Program-made: the position numbers and the translations under genes
The notes under the pieces: generated by a model
Database searches by the model: none
What the model was told of the DNA's origin: nothing
The model's input: only the letters and a program-made list of their open reading frames with translations
From: Vibrio atlanticus
GTDB taxonomy: Bacteria > Pseudomonadota > Gammaproteobacteria > Enterobacterales > Vibrionaceae
Reading direction: 5' to 3'
Assembly: GCF_024347315.1 (NCBI RefSeq)
Contig: NZ_AP025461.1
Span: 1,488,001-1,552,000 of the forward strand
DNA length: 64,000 nt
Shown here: positions 5,134 through 30,816 of the stretch, piece after piece
Position numbering within the stretch: position 1 is the stretch's first letter
Layout of the letters: each line of letters opens with the position of its first letter

Positions 5134-5540
5134 ATTTCTACTCGATGAAGTTAACTAGAGTGAATCGAACCAATGCACGTATTCCCCTAGCCCCCTTCCC
5201 TTTTGTCTGCTTATCATTACCGATAACTTTTTGCTCGATTTCTCAATTGCTCAATGTTTGCATCAAGAAGATCACAAGAGTTGGGAATAGTGAACGACGA
5301 AGTCCGATCTTCTTTTAATTGCATTCGAGTACAACTCTACGAATAAATGAACTGTAACGTCGCTTAGATAGCCTTCACTCATTGTTTTAGTATCTTGTAG
5401 CAAGTTATTTCAATATAGACTTAGAACGCGATACAGCTAAGTTTAGGCGCTAACATTAGATATAGGGACGACGTTTAGTTGAAGTAAGCTGCCGAATATA
5501 TAGAACTAACCAAAGCTTAAGTTCAAATAGCAGGCACAAA
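5134..5540. other. Non-coding gap between the MITE and deaD terminator
   Basis: No gene or recognisable regulatory element was seen. The short open frames here lack ribosome-binding sites and family features. Confidence 0.5.
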
Positions 5541-5565
5541 AAAGCCGAGCACTAAGCTCGGCTTT
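5541..5565 (-). terminator. Rho-independent terminator of deaD
   Basis: Perfect 10-bp stem AAAGCCGAGC / GCTCGGCTTT with a five-base loop and A-rich flanks, about 70 bp after the helicase stop codon. Confidence 0.85.
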
Positions 5566-5635
5566 TAAATTCGCTATTTAAGCTATTCACCTATAAGCAC
5601 TTGGCTTGTAAGTTTCACTTAAAACTAAAGGTTGA

Positions 5636-7633
5636 TTAACCTTCGTTGCGCTCTGGACGACGACCGCGGTTGCCGCCATTGCCTGCTGCGTTGCCATGGC
5701 CACGTTCGCCACGGTGGTTACCACGGTGATCGCCACCACGGTTACGGTCAAAGCGACGTTCGCCATCACGACCACCAGCAGAGTTACCATCACGTGCGCC
5801 GTCACGGTTGCCACGGTAGCCACCACGACCGCCATTGCCACCTTCACGGTTACCACCTTCGCGATTACCGCCTTCACGGTTACCACGGTAGCCGCCACCA
5901 TCACGACCGCCACGACCGCCGCCACGGTTGCCATCACGACCACCGCCGCCACGACGAGGCTCACGGAAGTCGTTGAAATCAACAACTACAGCGCCAGCTT
6001 CTTTTTGACGAATGCGAAGTTTGCTTAGCTTACCAGCAGTTTCAGAGTTCATTGCTTTTGGCAGTTGAACGTAAGTAGAACCTTGGTCTAGTTTGATAGC
6101 ACCGATAGAACCTTTAGTTAGGCCTAGTTCGTTTGCTAGTGCGCCAACGATGTCTTTAACCTGAACGCCTTGCTCACGGCCAACTTGTAGTTGGTACGTA
6201 TCCCAATCTTGAGTATTGAAGTTACGTCCACCACCGTCACGGCCATTGTCACGATCTTCACGACGCTCTTTGCGACGGTTCTTATCACGCTCAATAGCAG
6301 CGATCATTGGGTCTTCGCCAACGTAGAATAGAGGGCTCTTACCTTGCTGACGCTTAAGAAGCATTGCAGCTAGAGTAGCAGCATCAACTTCTAGAGATTC
6401 TTGTAGTGTAGAGATTAAACCTGCGAAGTTTTCTAGAGCTTTGCTCTCTTTCTCAGTTTCAAGCTCAGCACCAAGCTTAGCAACACGTGCAGCAGCAACT
6501 TCGTCACGTTGTGGAAGTTGGATTTCTTCCATTTGAGACTTAGTTACACGCTCGATAGTGCGAAGCATACGAATTTGGTTAGTGCGAACTAGTAGGATCG
6601 CTTTACCTTTACGTCCAGCACGGCCAGTACGACCAATACGGTGGATGTAAGATTCAACATCAAATGGGATGTCGTAGTTGAATACGTGAGTGATACGTGG
6701 AACATCAAGACCACGTGCTACAACGTCAGTTGCAACTAGGATATCGATAACACCTTGTTTGATGTGATCAACAGTGCGCTCACGTAGAGACTGAGGAATA
6801 TCACCGTGCAGTGCAGCAGCTTTGAAGCCACGAGCAGATAGCCAATCAGCTAGACGCTCAGTGTCTTGACGAGTACGTACGAATACGATTGACGCGTCAG
6901 TTTCTTCAGTTTCAAGAAGACGAGACATTGCTTCGTCTTTTTCTACGCCTTTAACAACCCAGTAGTTCTGCGCTACTTTGTCAACTGTGTGGTTAGTACC
7001 AGCAACGTCAACTTTAGCCGGGTTACGTAGGTAACGGTCAACAATAGTCTTAACCATTGGAGGCATAGTCGCAGAGAAAAGTACACGTTGTGCAGATTCT
7101 GGAGCTTGCTCTAGGATCCAAGTAACGTCATCTACGAAGCCCATTTTTAGCATTTCATCTGCTTCATCAAGAACAAATGTGTGTGCTTCATCTAGGTGTA
7201 GACGGTCACGAGTTAGTAAGTCTTTAACACGACCTGGAGTACCAACAACAATGTGAGCACCGCGGCTTAGAGCGCGCATTTGGTCAACAATTGAAGCGCC
7301 ACCGTAGATTTCAAGAACTTTAAGACCTTTGATATCACGGCCTAGGTTTTTGATTTCCGCAGCAACTTGAATCGCTAGCTCACGAGTCGGAGCCATGATG
7401 ATTGCTTGTGGTTTATGTTGGTTCAGGTTGATTTTGTTAAGTAAAGGCAGAGAGAATGCTGCTGTTTTACCAGTACCAGTCTGTGCTTTACCTAGTGCGT
7501 CACGGCCTTCAAGAAGAAGAGGAATAGCTGCTGCTTGGATTGGAGTCGGAGAAACGAAACCCATGCTATCAAGAGCTGAAAGAATGTTTTCGTTTAGGGC
7601 TAATTCATTAAATTGAATTACAGATTCGGACAT
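5636..7633 (-). CDS. deaD: DEAD-box ATP-dependent RNA helicase DeaD/CsdA
   Basis: A 665-residue cytoplasmic RNA helicase; E. coli DeaD (CsdA) unwinds RNA in ribosome assembly and cold adaptation. Motifs in order: Q-motif PTPIQ, AQTGTGKT (50-57), PTRELA, TPGR, DEAD (156-159), SAT (187-189), then HRIGRTGRAG in RecA domain 2. A DeaD-type RNA-binding domain follows, then a Gly/Arg/Asn-rich tail of about 100 residues with REGGN repeats. The start at 7631-7633 (MSESVIQFNEL) is chosen by homology; the frame stays open 28 codons upstream but those residues look non-coding. The upstream leader is long, a feature of cold-shock helicase mRNAs (known for the family). It is the first of three DEAD-box genes in this window. 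Confidence 0.95.
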   Translation of the reverse strand: MSESVIQFNELALNENILSALDSMGFVSPTPIQAAAIPLLLEGRDALGKAQTGTGKTAAFSLPLLNKINLNQHKPQAIIMAPTRELAIQVAAEIKNLGRDIKGLKVLEIYGGASIVDQMRALSRGAHIVVGTPGRVKDLLTRDRLHLDEAHTFVLDEADEMLKMGFVDDVTWILEQAPESAQRVLFSATMPPMVKTIVDRYLRNPAKVDVAGTNHTVDKVAQNYWVVKGVEKDEAMSRLLETEETDASIVFVRTRQDTERLADWLSARGFKAAALHGDIPQSLRERTVDHIKQGVIDILVATDVVARGLDVPRITHVFNYDIPFDVESYIHRIGRTGRAGRKGKAILLVRTNQIRMLRTIERVTKSQMEEIQLPQRDEVAAARVAKLGAELETEKESKALENFAGLISTLQESLEVDAATLAAMLLKRQQGKSPLFYVGEDPMIAAIERDKNRRKERREDRDNGRDGGGRNFNTQDWDTYQLQVGREQGVQVKDIVGALANELGLTKGSIGAIKLDQGSTYVQLPKAMNSETAGKLSKLRIRQKEAGAVVVDFNDFREPRRGGGGRDGNRGGGRGGRDGGGYRGNREGGNREGGNREGGNGGRGGYRGNRDGARDGNSAGGRDGERRFDRNRGGDHRGNHRGERGHGNAAGNGGNRGRRPERNEG

Positions 7634-8025
7634 TGGGATCCCACTATATATAAGTAAACAAAAGGTCCCGGGAGCTCTATCAATTCCAATACTGATCCAA
7701 TCAGATACTGATTCCATTCAGAGTTACGAAGCAGTAATAAAACACTTCAAGCCATTAGGGACGTCTAAGGGAGGCGGATTATTCCTTAAATGCATAAAAA
7801 AAGCCAGAAAAAATTGAAATACATCACATATTTTTCGGTTTTACATCAACACTGGCTATCATATCGTCAAAACTTGATGAATATCTCGTCACAGCACCAA
7901 ACTTCTAGCAAATTGACCTAGTTAAATAAGAGGGCAATTAATTTACGCTCACTTCGCCTTTAAGTAGTAATCAAGCCTCGCAATGATTATAGTGTGCTCA
8001 ATTGTCCTCGATAGATAAAAGTCAA
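7634..8025. promoter_or_regulatory. Divergent leader region between deaD and rnb
   Basis: About 390 bp without a gene, holding the promoters and leaders of two divergently transcribed RNA-metabolism genes. No specific operator was recognised. Confidence 0.45.
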
Positions 8026-10032
8026 ATGTTTCAAGATAATCCTCTACTCGCTCAACTCAAACAGCAAATCCAAGAAACTCTCCCTAAAAAGGAAGGTACG
8101 ATCAAAGCCACTGAAAAAGGGTTTGGTTTTCTCGAAGTCGATAGCAAAACTAGCTTCTTCATCCCACCGCCGTACATGAAAAAATGTGTGCACGGTGACA
8201 AGGTGATTGCCATCATTCGCACTGAGAAAGAGCGCGAAGTTGCAGAGCCAGAGGAGTTGATTGAACAGGGTCTTACTCGCTTTATTGCACGAGTTAAGCT
8301 TTTCAAAGGTCGATTGAACGTTGTTCCAGATCACCCGCAACTGAAAAAACTGCAGCTTAAAGCGAAAGCACAGAAGGGTTTGAACCCTGAAACGCTTAAA
8401 GAAGGCGACTGGGTTGTTGCTCATATCGTTCAACACCCGTTAAAAAGTGACAACGGCTTCTTGGCTCAGATCTCTGAGAAAATCACAGACGCTGATGACA
8501 AAATCGCGCCTTGGTGGGTAACGCTAGCGCAAAATGACCTACCAAACAGCGAACCTGAAGGCATCGACGACTGGCAGATCAAAGACGACGCTGATCTTGA
8601 ACGTGTAGACATGACTCACGTCCCTTTTGTGACTATCGATGGCGAAAGCACAAAAGATATGGACGATGCGCTTTACGCTAAGAAGAAAGAGAGCGGTGAT
8701 TTTGAATTGACTATCGCAATTGCTGATCCTACCGCTTACATCTCTCCAGATGATGCAATGGATAAAGTGGCTCGCGAGCGTGGTTTCACTATTTACCTGC
8801 CTGGTCGTAACATCCCAATGTTGCCTCGCGATCTAGCTGACAACTTATGTTCACTCATAGAGAACGAAGTTCGCCCAGCACTTTGCTGCACAGTAACGGT
8901 ATCTAAAGATGGTGTTATCGGTGATGACATTAGCTTCTTCGCTGCAAACATCAAATCTCACGCTCGTCTTGCTTACGACCACGTATCAGACTGGCTAGAA
9001 ACAGGAGCATCAGAGAAATGGCAACCGTCAGAAGAGATTGCTGCAATTGTTTCTGATCTTCACCAATTTGCTCAAGCACGTTCAGCGTGGCGTTCTGCAA
9101 ATGCGGTTGTGTTCCCAGATCGCCCTGACTACCGCTTTGAACTAAGCGAAGACAACGATGTTGTCGCTATCCACGCGGACATGCGTCGTAGCGCAAACAA
9201 GTTGGTTGAAGAGTCGATGATCAGCGCGAACATCTGTGCCGGTCGAGTATTAAAAGAAAGCTTTAACCAAGGTGTCTTTAACTGTCACTCTGGTTTTAAA
9301 GCTGAGAAAGTAGCAGACGTTCTGGAGCTGGTTAACCCAGAAGCAGAAACACCGTTTACAGAAGAGCAGATCGTTTCTCTGGAAGGTTTTGCTACTCTGC
9401 GTCGTTGGTTAGGTTCTTTAGACAACAGCTACTACGATAACCGTATTCGTAAATTCCAAGCGTACAGCGAGATCAGCAATGAACCTGCGCCGCACTACGC
9501 GATGGGCTTAGACATTTATGCGACGTGGACTTCTCCAATTCGTAAATACGGTGACATGATTAACCACCGTATGCTTAAAGCACACATATTAGGTAAAGCA
9601 CCGATTCAAACACCAGACGAAACCATTGGTGATGAACTTGCTCTGCACCGCCGTCACCACGGTATGGCTGAACGTAACGTTGGCGATTGGTTGTATGCTC
9701 GTACTCTAGCGAACGCTCCAGTTGAAGAAACTCGTTTCCAAGCAGAGATTTTCGACATTAACCGCGCAGGTATGCGTGTACGCCTACTTGACAATGGTGC
9801 AGCGGCGTTTATCCCTGGCTCTCTCATTCTTGATAATAAAGAGAGAATAGAGTGCAACGGTGATATGGGTACTGTATCTATCGATAAAGAAATGGTATAC
9901 AAACTGGGAGACGTTTTAGAAGTAGTTCTCTCAGAAGTTAATCAGGAAAACCGTAACTTGGTAGCAAAACCTACACAAGTTTTTGCGGACTTGCCTAGCG
10001 AGCCTGAAACAACAAATGAAACCGAAGCCTAA
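8026..10032 (+). CDS. rnb: Exoribonuclease II
   Basis: A 668-residue RNase II, a processive 3'-to-5' exonuclease that degrades mRNA. The N-terminus aligns closely with E. coli ([14 protein letters not shown]), which sets the start at ATG 8026 rather than the in-frame TTG at 8002. Cold-shock domains occupy about 1-190, the RNB catalytic domain follows, and a C-terminal S1 domain closes the protein. The four metal-binding aspartates are present at D205, D211, D213 and D214 ([12 protein letters not shown]), matching E. coli D201, D207, D209 and D210. It is monocistronic with its own terminator and transcribed away from deaD. Confidence 0.96.
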
Positions 10033-23921: not shown

Positions 23922-24656
23922 ATGATTTCAAAAAACCAATTAAAACTCCTTCGTGCTTTGGGCCAAAAGAAACAACGTAAAGCCCACGGTTTGTTTCTAG
24001 TTCAAGGTGAAAAGAACGTTCTTGAGCTGTTCAATAGTGACTTAGTCGTGAAGAACGTCTTTGCTACCGCTGATTTCTTATCTGAAAATCACGCTTCACT
24101 GTTTGAGTTTGATTGTGTTGAAGCTTCACTAGATGACCTCACCAAAGCGAGTACTTTGGTAAGTAACAATGCGGCGATTGCTGTTGTTGAGATTCCAACG
24201 TTTGAATTACCAAAAGCTACTGGGTTAATGATTGCACTGGATGGTGTATCTGATCCGGGCAACCTAGGTACGATTATTCGTGTAGCAGACTGGTATGGCA
24301 TTAAGCATATCGTTGCGAGCAGCGATTGTGCAGACCCATACAACCCTAAGACCATCAGTGCAACTATGGGTAGCTTTGGCCGAGTACACGTAAGCCAAAC
24401 GGACTTACCTGAATACTTGGAGCAAGCGAACCTGCCTGTTTACGGTGCGTTTCTAGAAGGTGAAAGTGTTCATAAGACTGACTTCACTGCCAATGGTATT
24501 TTGCTGATGGGCAGCGAGTCTCACGGCATCCGTGAACATGCGGCTAAATACGTGACAGACAAGATTACGATTCCAGCTTTTGGTGGCGCGGAGTCTTTGA
24601 ACGTTGCAATGGCGACAGGTATTATTCTCGACAACATGCGTCGTCAGCATAGTTAA
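23922..24656 (+). CDS. TrmH-family (SpoU) RNA methyltransferase
   Basis: A 244-residue SPOUT methyltransferase. The three family motifs are clear: motif 1 LDGVSDPGNLGTIIR (catalytic Asn and Arg), motif 2 LLMGSESHGI, motif 3 IPAFGGAESLNVAMATGI, together forming the trefoil knot that binds S-adenosylmethionine. The N-terminal part (about 1-95, RKAHGLFLVQGEKNV) is the substrate-recognition domain of the SpoU_sub_bind type. Enzymes of this group make 2'-O-methyl ribose in rRNA or tRNA; the target nucleotide here is unknown. AGGAT precedes the ATG. Monocistronic. Confidence 0.9.
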   Translation: MISKNQLKLLRALGQKKQRKAHGLFLVQGEKNVLELFNSDLVVKNVFATADFLSENHASLFEFDCVEASLDDLTKASTLVSNNAAIAVVEIPTFELPKATGLMIALDGVSDPGNLGTIIRVADWYGIKHIVASSDCADPYNPKTISATMGSFGRVHVSQTDLPEYLEQANLPVYGAFLEGESVHKTDFTANGILLMGSESHGIREHAAKYVTDKITIPAFGGAESLNVAMATGIILDNMRRQHS

Positions 24657-24687
24657 TCGATCCAAGAGTAAACACTAAATAGAACTC

Positions 24688-24990
24688 GCGGATATGAAGA
24701 GCAAGATTCCCTATCTTGCTCGTCCCTCACAGTAGGGAATGACAGAATTCAACTGAGCTTCATCGTCAACATAGTCAATAGAATCGAGAATATACTACTA
24801 GCCAGAATTTGCGGATATGAAGAGCAAGATTCCCTATCTTGCTCGTCCCTCGCAGTAGGGAATGACAGAATTCAACTGAGCTTCATCGTCAACATAGTCA
24901 ATAGAATCGAGAATATACTACTAGCCAGAATTTGCGGATATGAAGAGCAAGACTCCCTATCTTGCTCGTCCCTCACAGTAGGGAATGACA
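24688..24990. repeat. 123-bp tandem repeat, 2.5 copies
   Basis: Units begin at 24688, 24811 and 24934 (exact spacing 123 bp), differing by a few bases; the third copy stops after 57 bp. Each unit opens with a perfect hairpin (GAGCAAGAT / ATCTTGCTC) and a TCCCT...AGTAGGGA pair. The hairpin part resembles an extragenic repeat frequent in Vibrio genomes (from memory). Non-coding. Confidence 0.85.
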
Positions 24991-25147: not shown

Positions 25148-25173
25148 GAGAAGGTTTATTTCAAGTAACAGAA

Positions 25174-25497
25174 TTACTTTTCTAGCATTGCCAACTTATC
25201 AGACACACCATTCCACTTTTCAGCGTCATCCATTGGTGCTTTTACTTCCGTTTGTACCGGCCAGATTTCTGCAAGTTCAGCATTCACTTCTATAAAGATC
25301 TTTTGATCATCTGGCAGTTCATCTTCTTGGAAGATCGCTTGAGCGTCGCATTCAGGAACACACAAACCACAATCAATGCATTCGATTGGGTTGATTACCA
25401 TGAAATTAGGGCCTTCATGGAACGCATCTGCGGGGCATACCGCCACACAGTCTGTGTATTTACATTGAATACAATTATCGCCTACGACAAACGCCAT
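25174..25497 (-). CDS. fdxA: 7Fe-8S ferredoxin FdxA
   Basis: A 107-residue soluble ferredoxin. Cys9, Cys12, Cys17 and Cys21 ([14 protein letters not shown]) and Cys40, Cys43, Cys46 and Cys50 ([11 protein letters not shown]) have the arrangement of the FdxA family with one [3Fe-4S] and one [4Fe-4S] cluster. The acidic C-terminal half (about 60-107) is also typical. It carries electrons to unknown partners. It is transcribed away from the large FAD-dependent dehydrogenase gene, an arrangement that might reflect a shared redox role (inference). Confidence 0.93.
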
Positions 25498-25750
25498 GAT
25501 GCTCTGCTCTATAAGTTAGTCAAAATTGAAGAATGGGGATAATACTCATCCCAAGGCAAAATTCAACATCATACGGCTCTAATATCGTGTCTATTTGCTC
25601 CATGCTTCCAAATTAGTATGACAGATAAATCAATTTCTCGTAAAATGCGCGCCATTGTGAGCTTATCGCTTCTTTCAACATCAGCGTTTTCATCAAACTC
25701 TGTATTAAGAAACGATCTAGCTAAGACACCTATAAAAACGAGACATCAAA

Positions 25751-27382
25751 ATGATACGTTTAACCGAAATTAAACTCCCACTAGACCATGAAGAGTCAGC
25801 CATTCAAGACGCTATTGAAGCAAAGCTTGGCATTAACGCTGATCAGGTACTTTCTTTTAATATCTTTAAACGTGGCTACGATGCTCGTAAGAAATCAAAA
25901 ATCTTACTTATCTACACGCTTGACGTTCTCGTTGAAAACGAAGCTGAGTTGTTAGAACAATTCATCAGCGATCCACACGTAAAAGTGACTCCTGACATGG
26001 AGTACAAATTCGTAGCTAAAGCGGTTGAGAACCAAACTGAGCGCCCTGTCGTTATCGGCTTTGGCCCTTGTGGTTTGTTCGCAGGCCTAGTGCTTGCTCA
26101 AATGGGCTTCAATCCAATCATCGTTGAGCGTGGTAAAGAAGTTCGTGAACGTACGAAAGATACCTTTGGTTTCTGGCGTAAGCGCACACTGAACACTGAA
26201 TCAAACGTACAGTTCGGTGAAGGTGGCGCAGGTACATTCTCTGACGGTAAGCTCTACAGCCAAGTTAAAGATCCAAAGCACTACGGCCGTAAAGTAATCG
26301 AAGAATTCGTAGCTGCTGGCGCACCAGAAGAAATTCTATACGTAAGTAAGCCACACATCGGTACCTTTAAATTGGTTACCATGATCGAGAAGATGCGTGC
26401 TTCTATCATTGAGCTAGGTGGCGAAATCCGTTTCAGCACTCGCGTAGACGACGTTCATATGGAAAACGGTCAAATCACTGGCCTAACGCTTTCTAACGGT
26501 GAAGAGATTAAAACTCGTCACGTAGTACTGGCTGTTGGCCACAGTGCTCGTGATACGTTTGAAATGCTGCACGAACGTGGCGTTTACATGGAAGCTAAGC
26601 CTTTCTCTGTTGGTTTCCGTATCGAACACAAACAGGCGATGATCGATGAAGCTCGCTTCGGCAAGAACGCGGGCAACCCTATTCTAGGTGCTGCGGACTA
26701 CAAACTCGTACACCACTGTAAGAATGGCCGCACTGTATACAGCTTCTGTATGTGCCCGGGTGGTACTGTGGTTGCAGCGACTTCTGAAGAAGGCCGCGTA
26801 GTAACCAATGGTATGAGCCAATACTCTCGTGCAGAACGTAACGCAAACAGTGCCATCGTTGTGGGTATCGACCCAGAGCGTGATTACCCAGGTGACGCAC
26901 TAGCAGGTATCCGTTTACAGCGTGAATTAGAAAGTGCCGCTTATGTTCTAGGTGGCGAGAACTACGATGCCCCTGCACAGAAAATCGGTGACTTCCTAAA
27001 AGGTCGCGATCCAAGTAAAATCGGTGAAGTAAAACCATCATTCACACCGGGTATCCACCTAACGGACATTTCAAAAGCACTGCCTGATTTTGCTATCGAA
27101 GCGATTCGTGAAGCAATCCCAGCGTTCGAGAAGAAGATCAAAGGCTTCTCTACGCCAGACGGTCTGCTAACGGGTGTTGAGACTCGTACGTCTTCTCCTG
27201 TATGTATCAAACGTGGCAAAGACTTCCAAAGCATCAACTTAAAGGGCTTCTTCCCTGCAGGTGAAGGTGCAGGCTATGCTGGCGGCATCTTGTCTGCTGG
27301 TATCGATGGTATTAAGGCTGCAGAAGCACTAGCGATATCAATGGCTGAACAGAACCAAGCTGAGAAAATTGAGATCGCTTAA
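25751..27382 (+). CDS. FAD-dependent dehydrogenase (COG2509 type)
   Basis: A 543-residue putative NAD(P)/FAD-dependent oxidoreductase. An N-terminal alpha/beta domain (about 1-95) precedes the Rossmann dinucleotide-binding motif VVIGFGPCGLFAGLVLAQMG, VERG, and the downstream FAD signature FFPAGEGAGYAGGILSAGIDG. The middle contains FGEGGAGTFSDGKL, a hallmark of this uncharacterised family. The substrate is unknown. The ribosome-binding site is weak (GAGAC). It ends at a strong terminator, so it is transcribed alone. Confidence 0.88.
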   Translation: MIRLTEIKLPLDHEESAIQDAIEAKLGINADQVLSFNIFKRGYDARKKSKILLIYTLDVLVENEAELLEQFISDPHVKVTPDMEYKFVAKAVENQTERPVVIGFGPCGLFAGLVLAQMGFNPIIVERGKEVRERTKDTFGFWRKRTLNTESNVQFGEGGAGTFSDGKLYSQVKDPKHYGRKVIEEFVAAGAPEEILYVSKPHIGTFKLVTMIEKMRASIIELGGEIRFSTRVDDVHMENGQITGLTLSNGEEIKTRHVVLAVGHSARDTFEMLHERGVYMEAKPFSVGFRIEHKQAMIDEARFGKNAGNPILGAADYKLVHHCKNGRTVYSFCMCPGGTVVAATSEEGRVVTNGMSQYSRAERNANSAIVVGIDPERDYPGDALAGIRLQRELESAAYVLGGENYDAPAQKIGDFLKGRDPSKIGEVKPSFTPGIHLTDISKALPDFAIEAIREAIPAFEKKIKGFSTPDGLLTGVETRTSSPVCIKRGKDFQSINLKGFFPAGEGAGYAGGILSAGIDGIKAAEALAISMAEQNQAEKIEIA

Positions 27383-27426
27383 GCGCTTTTAATAAAGTAA
27401 AGCTACATAACGGTCAACCAAAACTA

Positions 27427-27460
27427 AAAATCCAGTGTCTTGTAGACACTGGATTTTTTT
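27427..27460 (+). terminator. Rho-independent terminator
   Basis: A 14-bp stem AAAATCCAGTGTCT / AGACACTGGATTTT with a three-base loop and long T-run, about 45 bp after the FAD-dehydrogenase stop. Confidence 0.9.
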
Positions 27461-27617
27461 ATTGCGTACGGATTATGTAGATTTACTCGGTATCGACTCT
27501 GGCTTTACTTACAAGTGTCTTTTGACCAGGTCACACCATCATCTGAACACTCAAATCGACTTGTTCCATTCTGGTAATAATAACCTTTAGTCCAGTTACC
27601 TTGAGAATATTTAGACG

Positions 27618-27773
27618 TTATCGTTTGAGTGTAATACCGCGGTTGGTGAAGTACGTGACAAACATCATCACCACACCAATCACCGCCGCCCAGTCTTGGA
27701 CGCTGAATGCCCCGGTAAGAGCCAGTAAGCCGCTAGTGAGATATGAAGAGAAGGAACTGGGTTTATCTTGCAT
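27618..27773 (-). CDS. Putative phage holin-like small membrane protein (HP1 type)
   Basis: A 51-residue protein starting MQDKPSSFSSYLTSGL, with two hydrophobic stretches (about 11-23 and 26-42) and a basic end (NRGITLKR). Size, a polar N-terminus, the SVQDWAAVIGVV turn and the charged tail resemble HP1-family phage holins, small pore proteins that release endolysin. No endolysin or other phage gene is nearby, so it is probably a prophage remnant. Immediately downstream a different minus frame (27505-27732) ends in Tyr/Trp/Cys-rich sequence with no start codon, consistent with damaged phage DNA. It points away from the ParA operon. Confidence 0.5.
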   Translation of the reverse strand: MQDKPSSFSSYLTSGLLALTGAFSVQDWAAVIGVVMMFVTYFTNRGITLKR

Positions 27774-27835
27774 ATTACTTCCATAGAAAAGCACCCGACT
27801 CTCACAATGGAAAGGGGTTATAAACGGTAGAAACG

Positions 27836-27866
27836 AAAAAACCTCGCTGGTTAGGCGAGGCTTTTT
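27836..27866. terminator. Bidirectional terminator between holin remnant and ParA operon
   Basis: Stem CCTCGC / GCGAGG with a seven-base loop, A-run on the left and T-run on the right. It isolates the ParA operon from the holin-like gene. Confidence 0.7.
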
Positions 27867-27908
27867 AACATGACTAATGCTCACCATTACACATAAACGG
27901 CTGACTTT

Positions 27909-28832
27909 ATGTGTTTTTTGTCAGATAATACAAAATCATTAACGGTGTGGGTAATTGATACAGTGGCAAAGAAAGAACCAGGTAAAGTCATAACAATAAT
28001 GAATATGAAAGGAGGTGTAGGTAAAACAACGACCACCATCAACTTTAGCACAACACTCGTTGGTAAAAAGTTAAATGATAAGTTTAAGCGCGTGCTAATT
28101 ATCGATTACGACCCGCAATTTAACTTGTCGCAATCCTTTTTCAACTATGCAGACTACGACCAACTTTTACGTGAATCAAAGAGTATTCTATCTATACTTC
28201 AGGACGACAATAGTCAACTTGATTTGTGTACTTTACAGACTCCTATGTCGACAAGCGGACCTAACCTAAGCTCTGTTACAGAAACTGTACTAGCGGATCA
28301 GGGTTGGCTACTTGACATTGTTCCATCTACACTTGATTTAATGCCTCTAGCCGTTAGTTCTTCCAATCTTGCAACGAAAATTATGGCAGAACGTTTTTCG
28401 AAAATGATTGCACAAGCGAAAGCTCAATATGACCTCATATTAATTGACTGTCATCCTTCAGGCTCTTTGTTTACCAAAACGGCAATTACTGAATCAAACC
28501 ATATTTTGGTACCTGTAACACCCAATGATTACGCCGAACGCGGAATAAGCTTAATGATTGACTTTATTTCACAGCTTTTCATGGGTAAAGACCTACCTCA
28601 GTTACATATTTTACTCAATAACATTAGCTCTGATGACAAAGCTTTTGCAACTAGACTTACTATCAGTAGACACTTTAAAAAGTACGTATTGAAACAACGA
28701 CTTCCCAGTTCTAAGCTTATCAGCAAGTCAAATATAAATAATGGATTTTTGTATCAGTCTAAAGGGCCACACAGTATAAAGGTAAAAAGTGATATGGAAA
28801 ATGTCATAAATGAACTGTTAGCAAAAGTCTAA
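27909..28832 (+). CDS. ParA/MinD-type ATPase (first gene of accessory three-gene operon)
   Basis: A 307-residue deviant Walker ATPase. Motifs: KGGVGKTT (34-41, both signature lysines), Walker A' DYDPQFNLSQS (66-76), Walker B LILIDCHPSG (176-185) and VPVTPNDYAERGISLM. There is no N-terminal DNA-binding helix-turn-helix, so it is unlike plasmid type Ia ParA. Such ATPases dimerise on ATP and bind DNA or membranes to position cargo. No ParB gene follows; two unknown genes do, with 14 bp and then an overlap between genes. The start is uncertain: ATG 27909 has no clear ribosome-binding site, and a GTG about 18 codons later is an alternative. The operon is visibly richer in A+T than its neighbours. 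Confidence 0.88.
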   Translation: MCFLSDNTKSLTVWVIDTVAKKEPGKVITIMNMKGGVGKTTTTINFSTTLVGKKLNDKFKRVLIIDYDPQFNLSQSFFNYADYDQLLRESKSILSILQDDNSQLDLCTLQTPMSTSGPNLSSVTETVLADQGWLLDIVPSTLDLMPLAVSSSNLATKIMAERFSKMIAQAKAQYDLILIDCHPSGSLFTKTAITESNHILVPVTPNDYAERGISLMIDFISQLFMGKDLPQLHILLNNISSDDKAFATRLTISRHFKKYVLKQRLPSSKLISKSNINNGFLYQSKGPHSIKVKSDMENVINELLAKV

Positions 28833-28846
28833 GTAAGGAGCAAGTT

Positions 28847-29458
28847 ATGAATAAAAAGGAACGTTCAACTATTTCTAGAGCGCTAGCAAGTGCTTTACTC
28901 GACTCCAAACTTTCTGAAGAGGAGTTAATCATGCTTTGCCAAAATATTTTGGCTGGAGATAGATTACCTTCAGATATTGCATCTCACATTTTAAACATTT
29001 TAGGTGCAAGCCCATCAAAGACTGAAATGAGAGACGATTACAAGCTATCTGTTAATTTAGATGATTACACCAGTTATAATTCTAGCGGCAGTAGAAAAAA
29101 AACCACTAATTCAAGAATCCATTCTAAAGGCCTTGGTCGCTCAAAGTTAAGCTCGACATCTCCACAGAAATTAGATCTAAAACGTAATGAGATATTGCAT
29201 ACTAATAGCCGAACATCGACATCAAATGATGCAGAGAAGGCATACTCCTGGCTAAAATCTCAAGGAGTTAACAAAAATATACTTTTCGAAGCTATGGAAG
29301 TATTTGACCCATCAATTCGTGATTATTTGCGAATAAAGCCAACGATACTTCAAGCCCTAGAGTACTTCATGGCAATCAACACTAGATCCAGTTTTGATCA
29401 ATTCATGAACTCCTTCATAGATGATAGCTTTGTGACCATGCTAGAGGCGAAAAAATGA
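28847..29458 (+). CDS. Unknown protein, 203 residues (second gene of ParA operon)
   Basis: AAGGAG six bases before the ATG gives a strong start. The N-terminal part (about 1-60) looks helical (TISRALASALLDSKLSEEEL). A Ser/Thr/Lys-rich linker (about 60-125, low complexity) follows, and then a second helical part (about 130-200) with AEKAYSWLKSQGVNKNILFE. No catalytic motif or family was recognised. The two-domain, flexible-linker layout and position after a ParA-type ATPase would suit a partner or adaptor that stimulates the ATPase (inference). Its stop overlaps the next gene's start. Confidence 0.75.
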   Translation: MNKKERSTISRALASALLDSKLSEEELIMLCQNILAGDRLPSDIASHILNILGASPSKTEMRDDYKLSVNLDDYTSYNSSGSRKKTTNSRIHSKGLGRSKLSSTSPQKLDLKRNEILHTNSRTSTSNDAEKAYSWLKSQGVNKNILFEAMEVFDPSIRDYLRIKPTILQALEYFMAINTRSSFDQFMNSFIDDSFVTMLEAKK

Positions 29459-30156
29459 CCGACTTTCAAGTCTGTTTACAAGAAATTGACTGGAATAGTA
29501 AACGAGATCGCTGCCTAAGCGATGGTAGTAATCAAATTGATAGTCTAGAGCATAACTTTCAGATACTTGCTCATTGGTCAAAGTCGTTAGAAACCATCTA
29601 TCATGGTAACGACGCACTCCCTTTTTTACGAGAAGCTCAAGTATCTGCGCAGGATTTTGCTTGTGTCTACTCTCTCGGCTTATATAAAAACTCCGCTGCT
29701 TCAATGAGGACAATCTTCGAAAGTATTCTTTACTTTAGTTACTTTAAGGATCACAACGTTGAGTTGAAATCAGTTACTAGATCTAAATTTCATCTAAGTC
29801 GAAGTAAAATTTTACAATATCATGATGATCACACCCCTAATTTTGCCAGCATTTCCGTAAAAACAAAGCTGAAAGATTTTTTAGACAATATGTACTCTGA
29901 CGTTTCAAATATCGTTCACAGCTCCCAACCTGGGGTTTGGCATCAAATTGCTACATTAGGAGAGAAAGAATATACAAGCTCCATAGCTAAAGAAGTTATT
30001 AGTTTGTTTAATGAGACAATTAGAGTCATTAACCTACTACTACTTTGCACGCTAACTTATGATGAGTGGCTGACCGTTCCGCATAAATGCAGAAAATTTT
30101 TCTTACAGGGGCTGACAGAACATCAGCTTAGTTTGATTGATAAACAAGTTATCTAA
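29455..30156 (+). CDS. Unknown helical protein, 233 residues (third gene of ParA operon)
   Basis: The ATG overlaps the previous stop as ATGA, indicating translational coupling. The protein is predicted by eye to be all-helical, with SAASMRTIFESILYFSYFK, an R-X6-H (RSKILQYH) and a conserved-looking SDVSNIVHSS. The last two features recall HEPN-type proteins, many of which are RNases or accessory units in defence and toxin systems, but the match is weak and unverified. No signal peptide or clear membrane helix. The C-terminus (TYDEWLTVPHKCRKFF) is aromatic and basic. Function unknown. Confidence 0.72.
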   Translation: MTDFQVCLQEIDWNSKRDRCLSDGSNQIDSLEHNFQILAHWSKSLETIYHGNDALPFLREAQVSAQDFACVYSLGLYKNSAASMRTIFESILYFSYFKDHNVELKSVTRSKFHLSRSKILQYHDDHTPNFASISVKTKLKDFLDNMYSDVSNIVHSSQPGVWHQIATLGEKEYTSSIAKEVISLFNETIRVINLLLLCTLTYDEWLTVPHKCRKFFLQGLTEHQLSLIDKQVI

Positions 30157-30195: not shown

Positions 30196-30389
30196 TTCAC
30201 TTGCCGCTACACATCTTCTCTTTAGAGCGATTCAATTCTAGATCCAACGCTCTATATCAATTATCGCTTCAGCCCCCAAACGAGGGGCATCAGTAAATCA
30301 GCAAACAAAGATGTTGATATAGGTCAAATCTCAAAGACAACCAACATCTATACCACACCATACCTTCCCTGCTCAAACAGCCTCACGAG

Positions 30390-30573
30390 CTATGCCGCAG
30401 CTTCCAATACTTTCGCCACACTTTCTTCTTGTTTATACCTACCCTGCAACGCCAAAGCCGCTGCACTGCGCTTATCCACCAAAGCGCTTAATCAACTTAC
30501 CTAAAGTGGATTCGTATTTCTTAAAGCGTGAGAAGGTAACGGGTAAGGTTTGACAGAAGTAAGCGAGGCGAGT
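30390..30573 (-). pseudogene. Frame-broken coding remnant
   Basis: On the minus strand one open frame (30573 down to a stop at 30472-30474) ends GKLIKRFGG. A second frame continues as DKRSAAALALQGRYKQ and stops at 30390-30392. Read together they look like a single C-terminus split by a frameshift. No start codon or family was identified. The surrounding 30196-30816 has no other supportable gene, and an AGATGTTG / CAACATCT inverted repeat lies near 30310-30350. It is likely debris at the edge of the accessory insertion. Confidence 0.3.
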
Positions 30574-30816
30574 TTATTGAGTCCAGTCAATACAGCCACC
30601 ATCGCAGTATGGGCAAGCTTGTCTTACAAGCACTCAACGAACAATACCAGAAAACCTACTGCCGATTATCTCCATGCAAGGCCGACGATCTCCTGCAACT
30701 CTGCGAGAATAAGTGGTCGATATCGTGGAAATAACATGAGTCCAGAGCGATGCTCGTTTAATAAATCAGTTGAAAGAACCAAACTTCTTTGGATGTCAGA
30801 ATGTTTAATTAATAAG

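Follow-up and report, generated by a model that had tools for sequence, protein, structure and literature searches.

The operon at positions 27909-30156 of a Vibrio atlanticus DNA stretch of 64,000 nucleotides (the window, which lies on the second of the three contigs of a 5.1-Mb genome) is best explained as a phage-borne accessory immunity module, left in the chromosome between the slot remains of a lambda-like phage. We give this reading a probability of about 60%. The operon encodes a ParA-type ATPase, a middle protein without known family and an all-helical protein predicted to be HEPN-like. It lies in a slot where related phages carry anti-phage weapons and is therefore probably an antiviral system, and one that has not been described before. 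Its position and the co-occurrence of its genes were observed, and from these we infer its activity; the assignment of roles within the module is less certain than phage-borne immunity as such.

The features on which the argument rests are the following.

27509-27635, minus strand: C-terminal remnant of a lipoprotein gene, intact in genome G202; left end of the insertion (blastn to locus L046)
27618-27887, minus strand: holin (EssQ-like) open reading frame (ORF) with a foreign end; PHROG holin, E 1e-11; EssQ in the note of the phage coding sequence
27842-27860, plus strand: terminator-like hairpin at the slot edge, inside a stretch common to the window and the phages
27909-28832, plus strand: gene 1, ParA-type ATPase, 307 amino acids (aa), or 289 aa from GTG 27963; AAA_31, E 1.1e-33
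28008-28028, plus strand: deviant Walker A motif KGGVGKT, read from the sequence
28847-29458, plus strand: gene 2, 203 aa, in two parts; the linker between them, by eye at about residues 78-125, is rich in Ser, Thr and Lys; no family match
29455-30156, plus strand: gene 3, 233 aa, predicted all-helical HEPN-like protein
29917-29919, plus strand: codon of His155, which ends the predicted helix 139-155 and is invariant (95 of 95 aligned sequences)
30381-30752, minus strand: decayed remnant of the phage gene adjoining gene P, with DNA beyond it at the far end; right slot edge

The three ORFs (307, 203 and 233 aa) follow each other with a 14-base gap and then an ATGA overlap at 29455-29458. A preliminary description of this DNA had claimed a three-gene ParA-type operon with this spacing, and all ORFs were found where it had placed them. 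It had also called the operon richer in A+T than its surroundings. Indeed, its G+C content is 36.6%, with a window value of 43.5%, and all 1146 overlapping segments of equal length outside the operon are higher. As for the terminators claimed on both sides, the upstream hairpin at 27842-27860 is a good one, but the only match at the downstream end (30109-30129) falls within gene 3. The terminator scan returned 4 terminator-like sites against 2.9 expected, and the promoter scan 9 sites against 10.2 in shuffles, i.e., no excess.

The phage slot and its cargo

In three close relatives, the conserved neighbours are about 80, 160 and 150 bases apart, compared to about 3.4 kb in the window. An ordinary chromosomal operon was rejected, as these relatives lack the insert and a fourth carries other genes at the spot. 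To the left, a blastn alignment of the window with L046 covers 25172-27635 at 96.6% identity and stops at 27635; the lipoprotein gene is the L046 ORF at 5400-6863. At the same chromosomal spot, G202 has this lipoprotein gene and, by eye, an SgrR-like regulator gene (L046 5400-8695), and of this pair the window keeps a 3' piece of the lipoprotein gene only. A special chromosomal hotspot was also rejected: the G202 insert consists of the lipoprotein and regulator-like genes, and the relevant slot is the phage's.

The edges of that slot were recognized in three phages of Vibrio cyclitrophicus (PQ189353, PQ189371 and PQ189354). Window positions 27624-27868 are phage DNA with 88-89% identity to all three and form the left slot edge, spanning the first part of the holin gene and the preceding DNA with the hairpin. 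At the right edge, the same phages match with internal gaps, at 86-89% identity over 30381-30689 and at 76% over 30699-30752; among plasmids, no match to this flank was found. The order and orientation of both flanks are those of the three phages. The flanks thus match the edges of one phage interval, and the operon lies exactly between them. A phage holin-like remnant on one side and broken coding DNA on the other had been noted earlier, and they can now be named as the left edge (PHROG holin, E 1e-11) and, in the form of a decayed phage gene, the right edge of the same slot. The phage gene beside the replication gene P looks like a late antiterminator (antiterminator-Q-like), given the paired Cys motifs that intact relatives show by eye. 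The remainder of the phage may have been lost, or the slot alone may have arrived.

In lambda-like Vibrio prophages, the interval from the holin gene to the antiterminator-like gene is occupied by diverse cargo, about 3 to 13 kb in size and partly defence-related. PQ189353 and PQ189371 share one cargo, annotated in the records with GajB_3, SduA and RelE-like, and the record notes for the cargo of PQ189354 name Retron RT and ATPase-TOPRIM. A left-edge match of any kind was found in 22 of 226 Vibrio genomes. It is strong (at least 200 bases) in seven of them, the window's included, and the remaining matches span 25 to 44 bases and almost always lie at the hairpin. Besides the window's, four of the seven genomes have both edges within 15 kb (G148, G020, G040 and G039). 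The sequence search of the PDB assigned an AriA/PtuA-like ATPase (E 1e-10) and an OLD-type ATPase (E 4e-5) to the slot of G148 (L074), which also has HNH- and UvrD-like neighbours by eye, and an Abi/UG-type reverse transcriptase (E 1.5e-15) to that of G020 (L075). The G040 slot (L072) holds an ATPase and a 377-aa protein for which no PDB match was found. By eye, small membrane-like proteins and a 313-aa protein occupy the G039 slot (L073). Defence-related gene families, identified by record note or PDB match, are thus present in five of the seven slots (three phages, four genomes). As is looked for in phage-borne anti-phage cargo, the window's slot holds known defence genes elsewhere. The preliminary description had proposed a cargo defence, toxin or maintenance module. 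That it is cargo is strongly supported by its position in the phage slot and by the insert-free relatives; which of the three roles it plays is what we infer below.

A similar arrangement is described for the anti-phage hotspots of P2 and P4 phages, where a small swap-in slot between conserved phage genes also holds defence systems. In E. coli P2 phages, this hotspot lies between gpA and the portal gene (PMC9122126). The likeness extends to the module itself, as the relative L031 is found at the portal side of a P2-like phage: gene 3 and a D12 methyltransferase gene are followed by P2-type portal, terminase, scaffold and capsid genes, and the gpA side is past the end of L031. Unlike these hotspots, the window's slot belongs to a lambda-like phage and extends from the holin gene to the antiterminator-like gene. 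The triad itself goes without mention in the available portions of PMC9122126.

The three genes and their joint occurrence

Gene 3 is present in 3 of 227 Vibrio genomes, the window's included. The other two copies are 26-27% identical to it, and each is preceded by a ParA gene and a 130-aa gene. Profile scans with gene 3 as sole bait gave 17 loci in genome contigs and 3 in viral contigs. The earlier claim had been staked on the genes travelling together, and for gene 3 they do: the order ParA, small middle gene, gene 3 was found in 20 of 20 loci with upstream sequence (17 genome, 2 Vibrio and 1 viral). The viral loci L031 and L032, which start inside or at gene 3, were left out of this count. 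Of the loci counted, L030 has a short gene 3 frame of 156 aa and a ParA frame that stays open far upstream, and L029 has a middle gene with a weak match (E 6.6e-6). L032 appears to be the DNA of L018 again, as the ORF coordinates of the two differ by a constant offset. Gene gaps in 14 of the 20 loci range from -4 to 12 bases and then from -23 to 6 bases. The hosts include Proteobacteria, Corallococcus, Acidobacteriaceae, Planctomycetota, Dehalococcoidia and Tectomicrobia, among others.

Relatives of gene 3 fall into two branches. The near branch comprises 18 proteins besides the window's own in a search of 5.8 billion proteins. Sixteen of these share 48-71% identity across 89% or more of the length, with Aeromonas veronii and V. 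parahaemolyticus as named sources. The deep branch comprises 265 proteins at E up to 1e-3; the gene 3 product of G192 is identical to one of them, P0021, named Vibrio sp. SNU_ST1. By sequence comparison the two branches are one family, because their profiles find each other and hhalign agrees (probability 97%, E 3.7e-11). The deep profile retrieved gene 3 of the window at 1.6e-16 and no other of its 139 ORFs at E up to 1. The near profile retrieved gene 3 in 21 of 22 loci (it missed L030) and none other of 1567 ORFs. The deep branch shows constancy of all three genes. In the near branch, their joint presence is shown by the window alone; gene 2 gives no link between the branches, and the ParA tree has a long branch.

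The module is rare and mobile. Among 394 order-wide genomes, the deep gene 3 found two, G192 and that of the window, and the A2 profile matched the window only among 369 class-wide genomes. The first scans with the near branch gave no confirmed locus, and E. coli genomes contained no deep triad DNA. Neither branch of gene 3 had a match in plasmid or phage records (plasmids: E 1e-5 and 1e-3). In G192, the triad lies downstream of a Zot gene (PF05707, 1.5e-39) and near Rep_trans and DUF1293 genes, i.e., in an inovirus prophage. In G121, a triad almost identical to this one is flanked by chromosomal genes only, and this near-identity in two such different settings indicates recent movement. The coordinates of the nearly identical Vibrio triads are 7918-9876 in L035 and 9727-11685 in L034. 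About 1.6 kb past the G192 copy, on the side opposite the inovirus genes, L034 has a short NACHT gene (6359-8149) with NACHT and SNaCT11 domains and no PADLOC match. In L033, a Mu F gene and a Mu protease gene enclose the module, and a Mu portal gene precedes them. PADLOC matches were obtained for two of nine flanking proteins tried from deep loci, a type III methyltransferase (L017) and RmrA (L027). Besides methyltransferases and phage genes, the 143 flanking ORFs include numerous metabolic families (among the best 25 of 116 and 25 of 98 families), so that not every copy lies in a defence island.

Gene 1 was said to encode a ParA/MinD-type ATPase without a DNA-binding domain, and the domain models agree: they are overlapping ParA/MinD-type ATPase models only (AAA_31, E 1.1e-33), with no DNA-binding domain among them. 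The signature-lysine Walker A motif of these ATPases (KGGxGKT) occurs as KGGVGKT in the window's ParA and in 20 aligned module ParAs. The reported absence of a ParB partner was borne out too, as genes 2 and 3 match no ParB family in Pfam or NCBIfam at E up to 10. The true start may be GTG 27963 rather than ATG 27909. The ATG has no clear ribosome site, and the GTG agrees with the N-terminus usual for ParA proteins and with a -10-like GATAAT at 27924-27929, seen by eye (such sites are no commoner than in shuffles). In a tree of 28 ParAs, the window's ParA groups with the 20 module ParAs (support 96/84) on a very long branch, which may mislead. The identity of the window's ParA reaches 25% at most, and its match to a generic ParA of L019 (1.1e-15) was almost as good as those to some of the module ParAs. 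No plasmid record matched it at E 1e-20. In phage records, 18 matches were found, and all 15 best of the 18 are below 35% identity. No further Vibrio ParA reached 1e-22 with it (1 of 227 genomes, the window's own), and the deep-branch ParA found none in phage records at 1e-40.

Gene 2 had been described as lacking a known family, and none was found in Pfam, PADLOC or NCBIfam at E up to 10; the sole PHROG row has E 0.28. The search among 5.8 billion proteins returned no relative except the protein itself, and comparison of its sequence with the PDB gave nothing convincing (best E 0.54). The middle genes of the deep branch form a family of their own, for which the structure model predicts a helical core with weak stretches around it. 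Between the window's gene 2 and this family, hhalign gave a probability of 0.7% and the profile search no match at E up to 1. The kinship of the two may be real but too distant to detect, or the gene may have been swapped.

As for gene 3, a weak HEPN-like segment in a helical protein had been proposed. The likeness gains from the structure model, the best structural rows of which are HEPN proteins, but the Arg of the canonical HEPN motif is absent. Instead of Rx4-6H, positions 148-150 are mostly S/A/K, D/E/T and V/L, with no Arg. The invariant residues are Arg85, Glu89 and His155, and the invariant Arg is thus in a different helix from His155. At E up to 10, gene 3 has no match to a HEPN model of Pfam, and a sequence search at E up to 1 found no solved structure for it. 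Both gene 3 and the family as a whole show a resemblance to DUF5677 (PF18928), for which Pfam states no function, but the window's protein stays under the curated cut-off (21.0 bits; gathering cut-off 27.1). Its relative P0019 scores 27.0 bits, and 75 of the 95 family members match DUF5677 at E up to 0.1. In the open-licence literature, one paper contains the term DUF5677, by its listing a machine-learning Salmonella study.

Elsewhere in the window, a repeat of about 123 bases is present in three copies (24640-24989) compared to one in G119, G080 and G040; positions 24640-24743, 24763-24866 and 24886-24989 align to one place in relatives.

Proposed mechanism and alternatives

ParA proteins bind DNA as ATP dimers. 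In the proposed immunity module, the ParA protein would sit as an ATP-bound dimer on the nucleoid or on phage DNA and act as sensor or switch. The gene 2 product would couple it to gene 3 as an adaptor, a role suggested by the constant order and size of the middle gene. The product of gene 3, with its Arg85/Glu89/His155 set, would be the effector, released or activated once infection disturbs ParA. It could then halt translation or growth (abortive infection) or exclude a second phage, most simply by cutting RNA.

An unlikely but serious alternative is a toxin-antitoxin or growth-arrest module without a phage trigger, in which gene 3 would be the toxin and ParA, with or without gene 2, the antitoxin or activator. 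Such a module would stabilise the prophage or slow the host during phage development. The tight overlaps between the genes fit this arrangement, and two precedents favour it. A dyad of a HEPN (MAE_18760) and a ParA/Soj gene was proposed as a toxin-antitoxin system, and it shares with the present operon a ParA-type ATPase gene beside a HEPN or HEPN-like gene (PMC3710099). Unlike this dyad, the operon has three genes with a constant middle gene; moreover, gene 3 lacks the canonical HEPN Arg and a HEPN Pfam match, and MAE_18760 is listed with the motif present in a table of that paper. The second precedent is ParA-Shi of ICEclc, a ParA and a small downstream protein on a mobile element which stop cell division, and which require the ATPase motif of ParA (PMC6812849). 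In contrast, Shi is short and HicA-related, and is followed by parB; the system serves conjugation, and the sections of PMC6812849 at hand mention no HEPN-like gene. Two proteins suffice in Shi-type systems, and three are constant here. The neighbours in the slot point to defence, although a toxin-antitoxin system can itself be defence. As far as the accessible text of these papers goes, the dyad is the nearest printed idea found and ParA-Shi the nearest tested analogue. No description of the triad was found in titles or abstract starts of the open-licence literature searched, and a term search in the accessible part of PMC13092281 gave no ParA.

It is improbable that the operon is a DNA maintenance (partition) system of a plasmid-living phage, with ParA and gene 2 as a ParB-like adaptor. 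Gene 1 does belong to the ParA family, and about a quarter of E. coli P2-like phages have a putative partition system at the hotspot (PMC9122126). Nevertheless, gene 2 matches no ParB or DNA-binding family, so that the ParB-type partner of ParABS systems was not recognized, and no part in partition is known for gene 3, which is the best conserved of the new components. Mu-like and inovirus prophages also carry the module, in L035 it stands by itself among chromosomal genes, and no plasmid record matches gene 3 or the window's ParA at the thresholds given above.

Positioning systems usually combine a ParA with a small adaptor-like protein that has a loose linker. A system of this kind, with gene 2 as an adaptor of the McdB type through which ParA would place an assembly of gene 3 products on the nucleoid, in a task of phage lysogeny or host physiology other than defence, agrees with the predicted helical core and weak stretches of the deep-branch gene 2, but it is the least probable of the readings, given the cargo position and a scattered distribution (3 of 227 Vibrio genomes) unlike that of housekeeping positioning.

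If the phage-borne module is defensive, a ParA ATPase, a protein known for moving DNA and other cargo, would act in an immune switch. This would extend the fields of HEPN effectors and of ParA, and it would suggest a function for a DUF5677-like family of several phyla. Furthermore, the slot between the holin and antiterminator-like genes of lambda-like Vibrio phages is a practical place to seek further systems.
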